Source: Acidobacteriota bacterium
GTDB lineage: Bacteria; Acidobacteriota; Terriglobia; Acidiferrales; UBA7541
Length of the DNA: 64,000 nt
Assembly: GCA_003225315.1 (NCBI GenBank)
Contig: QHZD01000026.1
Coordinates: 1 to 64,000, forward strand
Direction of reading: 5' to 3'
Under the pieces are notes generated by a model. That model was not told the DNA's origin. It saw only the letters and a program-made list of their open reading frames with translations, and ran no database searches. The position numbers and the translations under genes are program-made. Each line of letters starts with the position of its first letter. Position 1 is the first letter of the stretch. This document shows, piece after piece, positions 17,841 through 60,194 of the stretch.

Positions 17841-19376
17841 ATGGAAGCCCTTATCGAGAACGTTGTCATTGCTCCACCCATTGAGGCCCTGCGGGAAGGC
17901 CTAGAAACTACCGAGGAGAGAAGCCTCGGGCCTGAAGGCCCGAGCTACAGTGACACAGGCGAAAAAGCTGTAGCTCAGGGCGGTGTGGCTCAGGGCGATG
18001 TAGCTCAGGGCTTTAGCCCTGAGGATTCTGCTGCTATTGCAGGTTCATCCGAAACGCCGCGAACGGAAACGCCGGCGGAGAAAAATCCGTGGTCCGCATG
18101 GGCCTGGCTGGGACTATGCAGAACTCGTGAAGCGAAAACCCTTGGGCCTGAAGGCCCGAGCCACAGCGTGCGCATTCCCAACATTGTTCACGTGGATGTG
18201 GACGCATTTTTTGCGTCGGTCGAACAAGTGCTCAATCCCAAGCTGCGCGGCAAGCCCGTGCTGGTGGGGCGCGGCTGTGTGGCTTCGGCCAGCTACGAAG
18301 CGAAATTCCTCGGCGTAAAAACGGCGATGGGCTTCCGCGAAGCCCTGCGCATCTGCCCGCAAGCCATCGTCGTGCCTGGGCAGTACGAGCACTACGCCGA
18401 CTTTGCCGAGCGCGTGCGCCGCATCCTCGAAACCTATACGCCGGCGGTGGAAACCGCCGCGCTGGACGACTTTTACCTCGACTTCGCCGGCACCGGGCGC
18501 CTCTATCCCGATTACCAAGCCACGCTGCACCGCTTGCAAGCCGAAATATTTGGCCGCACCGGCTTGAACGTTTCGATTGGCGCGGCGCGCACCAAAGTGG
18601 TCGCCTCCATCGCTTCGCGGCTCGAGCGTCCGCGCGGCTTCCGCATGATCGCGCCCGGCGATGAAGAAAATTTCCTGACGCCGCTGCCCGTGGAAAAACT
18701 TCACGGCATCGGCCACGTCCACGCCGGAGCGCTGGCCGAGCGCGGCATTGCCACCATCGGCCAACTCCGTCAAGTGCCCAAGCCCGCGCTGCAGGCCGCT
18801 TTCGGCGAAGTTATCGGCCTGCAAATCTGGGAGCGCGCCCACGGCCTCGACGGCCGCGAAGTGCTGTTGCCCTCCACGCCGAAATCCGTTTCTCGCGAAA
18901 CCACCATCGAAGGCGGGACCATCGACACGGAATTTCTCAGCGGCCTGATCGAGTATCTCAGCGAGCGCATCGGCTCAACCCTGCGCGAATACGGCAAGCA
19001 GGCGCGCACCATTGGACTGCGCATCCGCTATGTCGATCATTTTTCGGCCCACCAGACTGTGCGCCTCACCAAACCAACCAACGACGAGCGCGAACTGCTC
19101 GCCGCCGCAAATGATTTGTTCGGCAAATTATTCACGCGCCGCGTGGCCGTCCGCCTCGCCGGCGTCAGCGTGCACAACCTCGAAACTGACAAACGCCAGC
19201 ACGAACTTTTTGACACCAATGCCAATCGCCGCTGGTACTTGAACCGCGGCCTCGATTCCGTCCGCGGCCGCTACGGCTGGAACGCCGTCTTCTACGGCAA
19301 AGGCCTCGAGCTCCGCGAACATTACGCCACCAAGCCCAACGGCCTGGTCCTCTCGACGCCCTGCTTGTCGCGATGA
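17841..19376 (+). CDS. dinB: Y-family DNA polymerase (DinB/Pol IV type) with repeat-built N-terminal extension
   Basis: The start is fixed by AGGAG five bases before the ATG, giving 511 residues, of which about 113 precede the polymerase. That extension is made of repeat DNA (three VAQG copies, two palindromes encoding LGPEGPS). The catalytic core follows: HVDVDAFFASVE (Asp119, Asp121) and ALDDFYLDF (Asp209, Asp210; most Pol IV have Asp-Glu here), then helix-hairpin-helix GIGHVHAGALAERGI and a little-finger domain. QHELF near the C-terminus fits a beta-clamp motif. Intact carboxylates separate it from inactive ImuB. It performs translesion synthesis and lies 187 bases before dnaE2. Confidence 0.9.
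   Translation: MEALIENVVIAPPIEALREGLETTEERSLGPEGPSYSDTGEKAVAQGGVAQGDVAQGFSPEDSAAIAGSSETPRTETPAEKNPWSAWAWLGLCRTREAKTLGPEGPSHSVRIPNIVHVDVDAFFASVEQVLNPKLRGKPVLVGRGCVASASYEAKFLGVKTAMGFREALRICPQAIVVPGQYEHYADFAERVRRILETYTPAVETAALDDFYLDFAGTGRLYPDYQATLHRLQAEIFGRTGLNVSIGAARTKVVASIASRLERPRGFRMIAPGDEENFLTPLPVEKLHGIGHVHAGALAERGIATIGQLRQVPKPALQAAFGEVIGLQIWERAHGLDGREVLLPSTPKSVSRETTIEGGTIDTEFLSGLIEYLSERIGSTLREYGKQARTIGLRIRYVDHFSAHQTVRLTKPTNDERELLAAANDLFGKLFTRRVAVRLAGVSVHNLETDKRQHELFDTNANRRWYLNRGLDSVRGRYGWNAVFYGKGLELREHYATKPNGLVLSTPCLSR
17925..18023 (+). repeat. Palindromic repeat cluster inside dinB 5' end
   Basis: CTCGGGCC-TGAA-GGCCCGAG (17925-17944) is followed by three 15-base direct repeats ending in GCTCAGGGC (17968-18012). 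The last leads into the palindrome CTCAGGGC-TTTA-GCCCTGAG (18004-18023). All is read in frame by dinB. Confidence 0.85.
18141..18160 (+). repeat. Palindromic repeat inside dinB
   Basis: CTTGGGCC-TGAA-GGCCCGAG is a second copy of the element at 17925-17944 (one arm base changed), flanked by the same kind of GAGC(T/C)ACAG sequence. It encodes LGPEGPSHS just before the polymerase domain. Confidence 0.85.
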
Positions 19377-19387
19377 GGAGAAAAAGC

Positions 19388-19451
19388 CTCGGGTCTAAGA
19401 CCTGAGCTACAGCATTGTGCATGTAGGGGCGCAGCATGCTGCGCCCCTACA
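19388..19451. repeat. Two palindromic repeats between dinB and dnaE2
   Basis: CTCGGGTC-TAA-GACCTGAG (19388-19406), followed by CTACAG, is a further relative of the palindromes inside dinB. It is followed by a perfect 30-base palindrome at 19422-19451 centred on GCATGC, with arms beginning TGTAGGGGCGCAG. The latter has no T-tract, so it is probably a repeat rather than a terminator. Confidence 0.85.
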
Positions 19452-19563: not shown

Positions 19564-22500
19564 GTGTTCGTACATTTACATTGTCATAGCCACTACTCGT
19601 TTCTGCGCGGCGTGGCGTCGCCGGAAGAAATTATCGCCGCCGCGGTCGAGCAGAAAATGCCCGCCGTGGCGCTGACGGATACGAACGGTTTGTATGCGGC
19701 GGTACAGTTTTACAAGTTGGCGCAGGAAGCGCGAATCAAGCCCATTGTCGGCGTAGCGCTGGATATTCAGTGGCGAGTGACGAGTGGCGAGTGGCGAGAA
19801 GGAATCGGAGAGATTCCTCACTGCACTCGAAATGACAGAAGAACACACTCCATGTCACTGGTGCTGCTAGCAGCTGACATGGAAGGCTACAGCAATTTAT
19901 GCCAACTCGTGACGCTGCGGCATCTTGGCACAACACAATTGTCACAAAACATGAATCCTGCTGAAACCGATGGCCGGCCGGTGACCATGCAGGAATTGGC
20001 GGAGCACAATCACGGGGTGATCGCGCTGTGCCCGTTGCCGGCACGATCGCGTGATACGAGCAACCGTAGGGGCACGATACATCGTGCCCCTGCCAACACA
20101 ACTCAGGCAGAAGCCGATTGCCACGAGCAAGGATGCTCGGTCACGAGTCGCGACTTACGAATCACCAATTATTTTTCACAGCTCAAGGAGATTTTCGGCG
20201 ACCGCTTATACATCGAAGTGCAGCGCCTCTTGCCGGGAGACGGGCGCACGTTGCGCGAAGCGGAACGTATCGGCCGCGAGCTGGGTGTGCCGTTGGTGGC
20301 GACAAACAATGTTCATTTTTTGCGGCCCGAGGAGCACCTGCATCACCGCGTCGTGAATGCGATTCGCACGGGCGGATTGCTGACCACGGTAGCGCCGCCG
20401 GAAATCACCACCGGCGAAGCATGGTTCAAGCCAGCGGCAGAAATGCAAAAACTTTTTCCCGATCATCCGGAATTGCTGCAGGCAACGCTGGAAATCGCCG
20501 ACCGCTGCAACTTGCAACTCGAACTCGGAAAGCTGATCTTTCCCGAGTGTACCGTTCCGGAAGGCGAAACTCCGGATTCCTATTTGGAAAAAGTAAGTTT
20601 CGAGGGCGCGCTAAAACGATATCACTTCGTAACACCAGAAGTGCGTTCGCGGTTGATGCGCGAGTTGGCAGTCATCAAGAAGTGGAGCCTGTCGCCGTAT
20701 TTCTTGCTGGTATTGGACATCGTGAACGAGGCACGGCGGCGCGGGATTCCCGCGGTGGCGCGCGGTTCAGCAGCAAGTTCGATGGTGACGTATGGCCTGG
20801 GAATTTCGCGCGTGTGCCCGTTGCGGTGGGGGCTCTACTTCGAACGCTTTTTGAACGAGCAGCGCGGCGATTGCCCGGACATTGACATTGATATTTGCGG
20901 CGCGCGCCGCGACGAGTTGCTCGATTACGTGTACGAACACTGGGGCGGAGAGCATGTCGCGATGATCGCAAGCTTTGTCACCATGCACGCGCGGCTCGCC
21001 GTGCGCGAAGTGGCAAAAGTGTTTGGCGTGCCGCCGGGTGAGGTGGACCGTTTTTCGAAGCGGTTGCCACACCGGCCGGTGCGTGAAATTTTGCAGGCCA
21101 TTCGCGCGCTCCCGGAATGCCGCGACTTGCCGATCGACGACGAACCCTGGAGAACGATCCTGCGAGTGGCGTTGCGTCTCGACGACGCACCGCGGCATCT
21201 CGGGATTCATCCTTGCGGCACGGTGATTTCCGCGCGTCCGCTGACGAGGTTGACACCGCTGGAGCGCGCAACGAAAGGAATTGTCGTTACGCAGTACGAC
21301 ATGAACGCCATCGAAGCGCTCGGCCTGATCAAAATGGATCTGCTTGGCCAGCGTGGATTCACAACGATGTCGCTAGCGCTGGACAACATCGAAAAAAGTA
21401 GGACAGGCATTCCTGCCTGTCTTGCCGTGCGCGAACCACAACCTAGAAAGCGGACAGACAGGGATGTCTGTCCCACCGCGCGCGAAATTGATTTTGACGC
21501 GATACCGGAAAACGATCCCGCGACGTGCGAGGTGATTGCGGCCGGGCGAACCATGGGAGTTTTCCAGATTGAGTCGCCGGCCATGCGCGGCATGCTTCGC
21601 ATGCTGAACGCGCGTACGCTCGAGGAAATGGCCATCGCCCTGGCGATCATCCGGCCGGGCGCAGCGGAGTACGGATCAAAAGAATTGTTTGTGAAGCGGC
21701 TGCGAAAAGAGGAAGAAATCACATTTGCGCACCCGGAACTCCAGAAAATTCTTGGCGACACGCTGGGCGTATGCATTTTCCAAGAACAGGTGATGCAAAT
21801 TTCGCAAACACTCGGGAGCATGTCGCTGGCGGAAGCCGATCTTGTGCGGCGGGCGTCCGCGAAATTCTCCGGCCGGAGCGACCGCGACCGGTTACGCGGG
21901 AAATTCCTGAAAGCCGCAGGAATGATGGGGCTGACCAGCCAGCAACGCGAAGAAACCTGGATGATGGTGGAAAAATTCGCGGGCTTCGGTTTTTGCAAAG
22001 CGCACGCCGCGACGTACGCGGACATTTCGTACCGCATGGCATATCTGAAAACGCATCACACGGCGGAGTTTCTGGCGGCGATGTGCAGCGCGGGCGCGGG
22101 ATTTTATCACGTATCGGCGTATGTCGAAGAAGCCAAGCGTTGGGGCATCGCGGTGCGGCTGCCTTCGGTGAATCATTCGCGGATGGAGTACACGGCAGAG
22201 GACGGCGGAGATGGAAAACGCGCGCTGCGCGTGGGCTTGATGCAAGTGCGAGGCCTGCGCATGGAAACGATCACGGCAATTTTGAGAGCGCGGGGAGAAG
22301 GCGGCGCGTTTCCATCGCTCGAAAATTTTCTGCGGCGCGTGCCGGTGGAAAGCGATGAGATCGAATCGCTGATCAAGTGCGGCGCCTTCGATGAAGTTTG
22401 TGACATGACGCGGCCGGAACTTCTGTGGCGCTGGAATTTTTTGCAAGCAGATAAATGTGCGCACGCAAAAACCTCTGTTTCAATGGGAGTAGGACAGGCA

Positions 22501-22929
22501 TTCCTGCCTGTCGTCTTTGCAACGGAAGAAAAAAACGAACAGACAAGAATGTCTGTCCCACAGTACACGCTGGAACAAAAGCTGCGCTACGAACGAGAAA
22601 TTCTGGAGGTCTGCGTGAGCGGCCACCCGCTCGATTTTTTGCCGCGCAACGGCGAAGCCTGGAGCGACGAGCTGACGGGGCTGCGCGGAAAGCGCGTGAC
22701 GCTGTGCGGCTGGGTGGTGACTTACCGCCACGTCGGCACAAAAAATTACCGCAACATGATGTTCGTCACGCTGGAGGACCAGCGCGGCATATATGAAGTG
22801 GTGCTTTTCCCCGATGCGTACGACCGCTTTGGCAACCTGGTGTATGAAACGCGCACGATGCGCGTCACCGGGCGCGTCGAGCAGGACGGGCAGATCAAGG
22901 GCGAAAAGTTGGAAGCATTGAGGAAGTAA
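19564..22929 (+). CDS. dnaE2: Error-prone DNA polymerase DnaE2
   Basis: The 1121-residue C-family polymerase has an N-terminal PHP domain (FVHLHCHSHYSFLRG), then the palm with ARGSAASSMVTYGLGIS and DCPDIDIDICGARRDELLDYVYEHWG, IHPCGTVIS, and a C-terminal OB domain (RVTLCGWVVTYRHVGTKNYRNMMFVTLED). It lacks the C-terminal clamp extension of DnaE1. The GTG start directly precedes the PHP motif. The protein is somewhat longer than usual DnaE2 because at least four repeat-derived stretches (around residues 69-97, 167-180, 611-637 and 975-1000) interrupt conserved blocks without breaking the frame. DnaE2 does SOS mutagenesis, normally with ImuA and ImuB, neither of which is adjacent; a catalytic DinB precedes it instead. 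Confidence 0.93.
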   Translation: MFVHLHCHSHYSFLRGVASPEEIIAAAVEQKMPAVALTDTNGLYAAVQFYKLAQEARIKPIVGVALDIQWRVTSGEWREGIGEIPHCTRNDRRTHSMSLVLLAADMEGYSNLCQLVTLRHLGTTQLSQNMNPAETDGRPVTMQELAEHNHGVIALCPLPARSRDTSNRRGTIHRAPANTTQAEADCHEQGCSVTSRDLRITNYFSQLKEIFGDRLYIEVQRLLPGDGRTLREAERIGRELGVPLVATNNVHFLRPEEHLHHRVVNAIRTGGLLTTVAPPEITTGEAWFKPAAEMQKLFPDHPELLQATLEIADRCNLQLELGKLIFPECTVPEGETPDSYLEKVSFEGALKRYHFVTPEVRSRLMRELAVIKKWSLSPYFLLVLDIVNEARRRGIPAVARGSAASSMVTYGLGISRVCPLRWGLYFERFLNEQRGDCPDIDIDICGARRDELLDYVYEHWGGEHVAMIASFVTMHARLAVREVAKVFGVPPGEVDRFSKRLPHRPVREILQAIRALPECRDLPIDDEPWRTILRVALRLDDAPRHLGIHPCGTVISARPLTRLTPLERATKGIVVTQYDMNAIEALGLIKMDLLGQRGFTTMSLALDNIEKSRTGIPACLAVREPQPRKRTDRDVCPTAREIDFDAIPENDPATCEVIAAGRTMGVFQIESPAMRGMLRMLNARTLEEMAIALAIIRPGAAEYGSKELFVKRLRKEEEITFAHPELQKILGDTLGVCIFQEQVMQISQTLGSMSLAEADLVRRASAKFSGRSDRDRLRGKFLKAAGMMGLTSQQREETWMMVEKFAGFGFCKAHAATYADISYRMAYLKTHHTAEFLAAMCSAGAGFYHVSAYVEEAKRWGIAVRLPSVNHSRMEYTAEDGGDGKRALRVGLMQVRGLRMETITAILRARGEGGAFPSLENFLRRVPVESDEIESLIKCGAFDEVCDMTRPELLWRWNFLQADKCAHAKTSVSMGVGQAFLPVVFATEEKNEQTRMSVPQYTLEQKLRYEREILEVCVSGHPLDFLPRNGEAWSDELTGLRGKRVTLCGWVVTYRHVGTKNYRNMMFVTLEDQRGIYEVVLFPDAYDRFGNLVYETRTMRVTGRVEQDGQIKGEKLEALRK
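19770..19838 (+). repeat. Dispersed repeat inside dnaE2
   Basis: Short direct repeats of GAGTGGC (about 19770-19797) lead into a 28-base segment (19811-19838), starting AGATTCCTC and ending CTCGAAATGACAG. It is identical at 25 of 28 positions to the reverse complement of 58541-58568. It encodes a non-conserved stretch between PHP motifs. Confidence 0.8.
20068..20091. repeat. Palindromic repeat inside dnaE2
   Basis: AGGGGCACGAT-AC-ATCGTGCCCCT is a perfect 11-base inverted repeat, preceded by GT and followed by GCC. It is similar in form to the palindromes at 19422-19451 and 60173-60194. It encodes RGTIHRAP in dnaE2. Confidence 0.85.
21398..21476. repeat. REPIN-like inverted repeat pair inside dnaE2, copy 1
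   Basis: A 24-base palindromic unit (21398-21421, core GACAGGCA-TTCC-TGCCTGTC) and an inverted related unit (21453-21476, core GACAGACA-GGGA-TGTCTGTC) flank 31 bases. This two-unit inverted layout is that of REPIN elements. It encodes SRTGIPACLAV to TDRDVCPT in dnaE2. Confidence 0.85.
22489..22561. repeat. REPIN-like inverted repeat pair inside dnaE2, copy 2
   Basis: The first unit (22489-22512) is identical over 24 bases to 21398-21421; the second (22538-22561) matches 21453-21476 at 21 of 24. The spacer (25 bases) is unrelated. Here it is read in a different frame, giving VGQAFLPV to QTRMSVPQ. Confidence 0.87.
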
Positions 22930-60161: not shown

Positions 60162-60172
60162 GAGCCTATGTA

Positions 60173-60194
60173 GGGTCGTGCTTCGGCACGACCT
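60173..60194. repeat. Palindromic repeat after rpiB
   Basis: GGTCGTGC-TTCG-GCACGACC with flanking AG and T, preceded by GT and followed by GCC, has the same form as the repeats at 20068-20091 and 19422-19451. It starts 11 bases after the rpiB stop and, lacking a T-tract, is more likely a repeat than a terminator. Confidence 0.65.

Follow-up and report, generated by a model that had tools for sequence, protein, structure and literature searches.

Translated REPs have been described before, and the closest counterpart is found in the work of Di Nocera et al. (2013; PMC3733652), in whose available text GTAG REPs are reported from within ORFs of several species, with many DNA repair genes, and DnaE2 by name, among the hosts; an intragenic REP in DnaE2 is therefore of a known kind. 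Acidobacteria are featured there in connection with TIR-flanked transposases. The elements described below resemble these intragenic GTAG REPs in having a GTAG/GTGG tag and a short palindrome, in occurring as singles and dimers, and in lying in frame inside genes, many of which, in that paper, serve replication and repair. They differ in that, as far as the available text goes, REPs at the same site are noted there only for recB of two Xanthomonas, whereas here, in a set of 32 genes, several REPs have refilled four loops of one and the same gene, and the position of a clamp-binding motif is occupied by one of the inserts. The REPINs of Pseudomonas fluorescens (Bertels and Rainey 2011; PMC3116915) share the inverted REP doublet, the variable spacer, and the RAYT link; according to the accessible part of that paper they are nearly all extragenic, with 14 16-mers overlapping genes, whereas the present elements are intragenic. 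The preliminary description of this locus had drawn a parallel with the palindromic elements of Rickettsia (RPEs), and the likeness holds insofar as these are also palindromic repeats in frame in many unrelated proteins (PMC10969869, PMC3733652). In the descriptions available, however, RPEs are about 150 bp long, or CGTC-tagged short types, and have neither a GTAG tag nor a RAYT link, which sets them apart, and the intragenic GTAG REPs, DnaE2 included, are the closer parallel.

What appears to us to be new is that different REPs have recolonized the same loops, that the distribution of the elements conflicts with the gene tree, and that a REPIN lies at a clamp-motif position; no precedent for loop recolonization or a clamp-site REPIN was found in the literature searched, whose coverage mostly left out subscription journals. 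With 32 orthologues, this is a well-sampled case of mobile palindromes that became protein sequence, the same loops being repeatedly refilled by different families.

Two in-frame REPINs in a dnaE2-like gene

The DNA analyzed (the window) is a stretch of 64,000 nucleotides from an Acidobacteriota gp2 genome of 4.98 Mb (57 contigs, 97.6% complete); all genomes compared are draft or metagenome assemblies. In the following, WIN is the window's gene, G000 is its genome, L numbers denote loci, and G numbers denote genomes of the genus. WIN (positions 19564 to 22929, forward strand) encodes a C-family polymerase of 1,121 amino acids with Pfam PHP, DNA_pol3_alpha, finger, HHH_6, and OB domains, and its ORF runs without interruption over the full length. 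As in DnaE2/ImuC systems, it is a second dnaE beside a replicative DnaE (G000:C1:392586-395261, 37% identical to its product). A Y-family polymerase gene (17841 to 19376, forward strand) adjoins it. The protein scores 667 bits with the curated model PRK05672 (cutoff, 939) and 834 bits with PRK05673 (DnaE; cutoff, 1,002) and does not reach the NCBIfam cutoff for error-prone polymerases; by resemblance and context, it is a putative DnaE2 and putative SOS polymerase.

Element 1 consists of a left REP unit, GTAGGACAGGCATTCCTGCCTGTC (21398 to 21421, forward strand), read as RTGIPAC; a spacer of 31 nucleotides (21422 to 21452); and a right inverted unit (21453 to 21476, reverse strand), read as TDRDVCPT. 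The left unit of element 2 (22489 to 22512, forward strand; read as VGQAFLPV) stands at the clamp-binding-motif position and is followed by a spacer of 25 nucleotides (22513 to 22537), which contains the nearly invariant F985, and by a right inverted unit (22538 to 22561, reverse strand; read as QTRMSVP). The two left units, both GTAGGACAGGCATTCCTGCCTGTC, are identical at 24/24 positions, the right units of both elements have the inverted GTGGGACAGAC form, and the outer ends are GTRG on both sides of each element, GTAG on the left and GTGG on the right. The spacers are unlike in length and sequence, as had been reported; the value of 21 of 24 given earlier for the inverted pairing is true of the right-hand units compared with each other, left and right units within an element sharing 20/24 and 19/24 positions. 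The left units fall in differing phases of the ORF (1 and 0), the unit is free of stop codons in 5 of 6 frames (GTAG form) or in all 6 (GTGG form), and the chance expectation of the unit pattern in the window is 0.00 (100 shuffles). The presence of two in-frame REPINs, accepted in two frames inside the dnaE2-like ORF, is thus confirmed; the interpretation that accompanied the first observation is, as a whole, partly supported.

The search for further copies of the 24-base unit, suggested with that observation, gave 59 matches in the 4.98-Mb genome (33 forward and 26 reverse; at most three mismatches), with 0 + 0 for the reversed control. The genome stretches read contain 40 clusters, comprising 12 inverted doublets, 3 direct doublets, and 25 single units; five single places and a group at C1:436 kb lie outside this set and were inspected separately. 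Spacers vary between the genomic copies of the doublet, and among the matches listed, other copies resemble elements 1 and 2 in the units only, a like spacer for element 1 being confined to the corresponding site in G002 and G010. Across the genus, the unit occurs in 29 of 36 genomes (at most two mismatches), with 39 matches in G000 and G001, 37 in G010, and none in seven genomes. A GTAG-type tag at the outer end of a palindrome of 20 to 40 nucleotides, many copies, and inverted doublets with a spacer all agree with GTAG REPs and REPINs. The extragenic position usual for that class is not shared, as elements 1 and 2 sit inside an ORF; this was not counted as excluding them, because intragenic members are documented (PMC3733652, available text).

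We consider it probable, at roughly 0.8, that the elements are RAYT-copied REPINs translated by way of stop-poor units in tolerant disordered loops of DnaE2, with linker lost or the loop swapped. Pairs of GTAG/GTGG-tagged palindromes would have been copied as single-stranded hairpins by a RAYT and would have landed in disordered loops that tolerate any open insert; neighboring dispensable linker would afterwards have been lost, or the whole loop swapped, so that a given loop would come to hold one REP in some dnaE2 genes of the genus, a different REP or another kind of repeat in others, and neither in the rest. That the elements are read as protein would be due to two things, a unit stop-free in 5 or 6 of 6 frames and a landing site in tolerant loops. 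Transfer between lineages and neutrality of the inserts are presumed in this reading, as is the order of events.

Disordered loops and their contents in relatives

The AlphaFold model of the window's DnaE2 (mean pLDDT, 82.8) resembles Pol III alpha structures, and its pLDDT drops below 50 in only four segments, residues 75 to 91, 162 to 193, 616 to 642, and 969 to 993, which are the variable loops A, B, 1, and 2. Mapped on this predicted fold, elements 1 and 2 fall within two of the four segments, in keeping with the loop placement first proposed for them, and the segments are predicted to be disordered. Loop A contains two dispersed repeats (19768 to 19838, forward strand; a tandem type at 19768 to 19800 and a second repeat at 19811 to 19838) with 17 further matches in the genome, and loop B contains a third, different REP in frame, GTAGGGGCACGATACATCGTGCCCCT (20066 to 20091, forward strand), with 42 further matches, some of them the same place on both strands. 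In a scan of 32 dnaE2 genes for GTRG palindromes (stem of at least 8, one mismatch allowed), the loops gave 40 matches in 12,741 bases (3.1/kb) versus 13 in 92,031 bases of core (0.14/kb), and shuffled loops gave 0.65; because perfect palindromes count on both strands, the 40 loop matches do not equal 40 elements. A loop match is found in 20 of the 32 genes (that of L135 looks like chance), and 12 have none. Other REPs occupy the same loops, namely, a GTAGCACAGGC pair in L052 and the GTAGGGGCGGGGC or GTAGGGGCCCAGC type in L124, L128, L127, and L122. By eye, decayed GTGGCACAGCC/GGC units also seem to be present in loop 2 of L048/L133, L131, and L130, outside the count of the GTRG scan.

The genome scan gave 62 loci, the genus search, in which both DnaE copies count, gave 34 of 36 genomes, and 32 different proteins were aligned. 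Among these, element 1 is carried only by WIN, L125 (G002), and L116 (G010), and element 2 only by WIN, L119 (G023), and L118 (G020), the left unit being decayed in the last; spacers are alike among the carriers of each element. In noncarriers, loop 1 is filled by KEVKEV runs together with APDGVTPCPK or else by other REPs, and remote relatives have nothing there (IERSTGRKIDF). Loop 2 of most relatives has an EKTETLFAEAN-like sequence. The clean in-frame gains of whole codons anticipated in the preliminary description are not seen: at both sites, close relatives have a different sequence in a loop of comparable length, and in many cases it is another REP. No aligned relative offers a clean empty site for either element, and for this reason we infer the insertion itself. 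Loop lengths are nearly equal (42 amino acids versus 43 in L117/L119, and 47 versus 57 in the sister L125), and since they stay about the same with and without the element, the net effect was that the elements replaced linker.

In a core-codon tree (19 rows, loops excluded; letter makeup deviates in 6 of the 19), monophyly of each carrier set is rejected, with AU P values of 0.00017 and 0.00054 from a test that assumes groups named before the tree, the present groups having been named from the alignment. The distribution of the elements conflicts with the gene tree, and carriers that the tree keeps apart have homologous spacers. Each shared element could go back to one old insertion lost many times instead of to transfer of a loop segment, which we regard as a possible but minority explanation. 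In element 1, the spacer has diverged to about the same extent as the flanks, as a single old insertion would have it (92% identity to L125, with flanks at 93 and 97%; 88% to L116, with flanks at 86 and 81%), so that no fresh transfer tract is visible, and the identity profile has no recombination tract around the elements. Where carriers have the element, however, noncarriers show the outgroup sequence APDGVTPCPK, and mere loss of an insert would not bring that back; the AU tests speak against either carrier set being a clade.

The clamp-binding-motif position

The phmmer alignment places GQAFLPVVFATE of the window's DnaE2 on GQLDLFGVLAEE of Escherichia coli Pol III alpha (chain 5fku_A), and QxxLF occurs at this position in 6 of 10 distant DnaE rows (QMGLF, QIGLF, QVSLF, QIALF, QHSLF, and QNNLF). 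Within the family, where 34 genomes had a match and 30 gave loci, L-F without Q is kept in 27 of 27 listed noncarriers; the three carriers have VVF, VAF, and VLF, with an upstream Q, and read VF, AF, and LF after GQAFLPV or KQGFIPV; F985 is nearly invariant. In the DNA of L118 the left palindrome is no longer there, but the protein still has Q, F, P, V, and F, with L changed to I and A to G. At the clamp-motif position, a REPIN thus has GQAFLPVxF where the clade has x-L-F; for clamp binding, a putative role, these comparisons are suggestive and do not amount to evidence. F985 was also considered as a relic of the native motif in a long host-derived element 2 spacer, which is indistinguishable from a spacer brought by the element.

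The clamp motif has a hexamer form, Qxx[LM]x[FLV]. Retention of element 2 for a working peptide, GQAFLPVxF having taken over the internal β-clamp-binding motif, would account for the alignment with E. coli Pol III alpha, for QxxLF in distant DnaE, for the endings of carriers and noncarriers, for the near invariance of F985, and for peptide residues that outlast the palindrome in L118. It is nevertheless unlikely in our judgment: the Q-to-F spacing in carriers differs from that of QxxLF and fits the hexamer form loosely, six genomes have the identical octapeptide in a loop of a cysteine desulfurase, for which a clamp role is not expected, and with just three carriers selection cannot be shown. 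The mycobacterial clamp contact, moreover, is made via ImuB, according to the available text of PMC10421592. Slightly more speculative still is the idea that REPIN 2, having replaced x-L-F by GQAFLPVxF, binds the clamp and alters the access of a mutagenic polymerase to the fork, in which case the dnaE2 loops would be a landing pad where unrelated REPs repeatedly remodel such contacts. If functional, the clamp-site element would be a bacterial example of a short protein interaction motif contributed by a transposable element.

Transposases and other host genes

Copying of REPINs by a RAYT, as in the reading we prefer, raises the question of its source, for which a place elsewhere in the same genome had been suggested. 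Pfam Y1_Tnp finds three genes there, L031, L032, and L033. L031 is an IS200-type TnpA and was ruled out as the partner; L032 and L033 are RAYT-type, at 108 and 75 bits over and under the NCBIfam RAYT cutoff of 80 bits, and both were ruled out, being flanked by other REPs (GTAG palindromes CTCACCCC and GTAGGCTCAGGCC at L032 and GTGGGCACAGCC/GGC palindromes at L033). RAYT genes are thus present in the genome as supposed, but neither of the two RAYT-family matches inspected is flanked by the REP of elements 1 and 2; the RAYT bracketed by this REP is L174 of the congener G020, which has GTAGGACAG units on both sides. RAYT presence does not track REP copy number across the genus, G010 having 37 REP matches and no RAYT match at 1e-8, and G004 and G034 having 11 and 17 RAYT matches and zero REP matches. 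A copy in another genome may serve, or once have served, as the partner, which would since have been lost. L033 itself (G000:C1:436630-437075), a RAYT ORF of 211 amino acids, has an in-frame REP of its own flanking family near the N terminus (RTGRNACAT).

Acceptance of the REP in frame is not peculiar to the DnaE2-like polymerase, as five other enzyme genes carry the same REP. Spanning ORFs of at least 180 amino acids from the 40 clusters amounted to 40 distinct ORFs, 36 of which were in the Pfam scan; the four outside it come from L108, L110, and L111. In-frame units lie inside Pfam-supported genes at seven sites, two in dnaE2 and the others in ArgS, a cysteine desulfurase (class-V aminotransferase), UbiD, CT_A_B (a PxpC-like carboxyltransferase), and a MiaB-like radical SAM enzyme, and in these five enzymes they are placed between or within matched domains. 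Compared with solved structures, the net insert at the unit is about 9 amino acids in the desulfurase, 16 to 20 in CT_A_B, 36 in UbiD, and 17 in the MiaB-like enzyme, and ArgS has no net insert there relative to 2zue. The desulfurase unit is common to G000, G001, G002, G018, G023, and G010, decayed to differing degrees, and a stretch resembling GTGGCACAGCC occupies the site in G017. In UbiD (L004), in-frame tandem repeats of the part-unit GGCAGACAGGCAGGAGAA adjoin a complete unit near 1411-1521 (G000:C23). Seven further Pfam genes (KARI, E1_dh, argininosuccinate lyase, 3-keto-disaccharide hydrolase, ribosomal L25, PrmC, and HhH-GPD) have the unit ahead of the first domain, where it is likely upstream of the start, and they were hence left uncounted. 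The five extra single places, the C1:436 kb group, and 16 more spanning ORFs gave no in-frame case within a Pfam domain region except the L033 RAYT, with its own kind of REP. Annotators and modelers should be warned that sequences like VGQAFLPV, RTGIPAC, and DRQECLSY in loops of Acidobacteriota proteins can be translated REPs.

An origin of the loops as low-complexity DNA, lengthened and shortened through slippage and through recombination between chance repeats, with the palindromes as a by-product, could appeal to the KEVKEV runs and tandem arrays that fill loop 1 in many relatives and to the short part-unit array in UbiD, but it is already hard to hold and highly improbable for units matching a GTRG-ended family dispersed in the genome (59 matches; control, 0) and for loops with 40 matches against 0.65 after shuffling.

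Other REPs are found around the gene. The Y-family neighbor has a variable N-terminal extension that holds two in-frame REPs of the L032-RAYT type (17925 to 17948 and 18000 to 18023). Between the two polymerase genes, a perfect palindrome, GTAGGGGCGCAGCATGCTGCGCCCCT, lies at 19423 to 19450; relatives have palindromes of this type in loop 1 or loop B. A solitary GTAG palindrome, GTAGGGTCGTGCTTCGGCACGACC, is located at positions 60170 to 60193 of the window.
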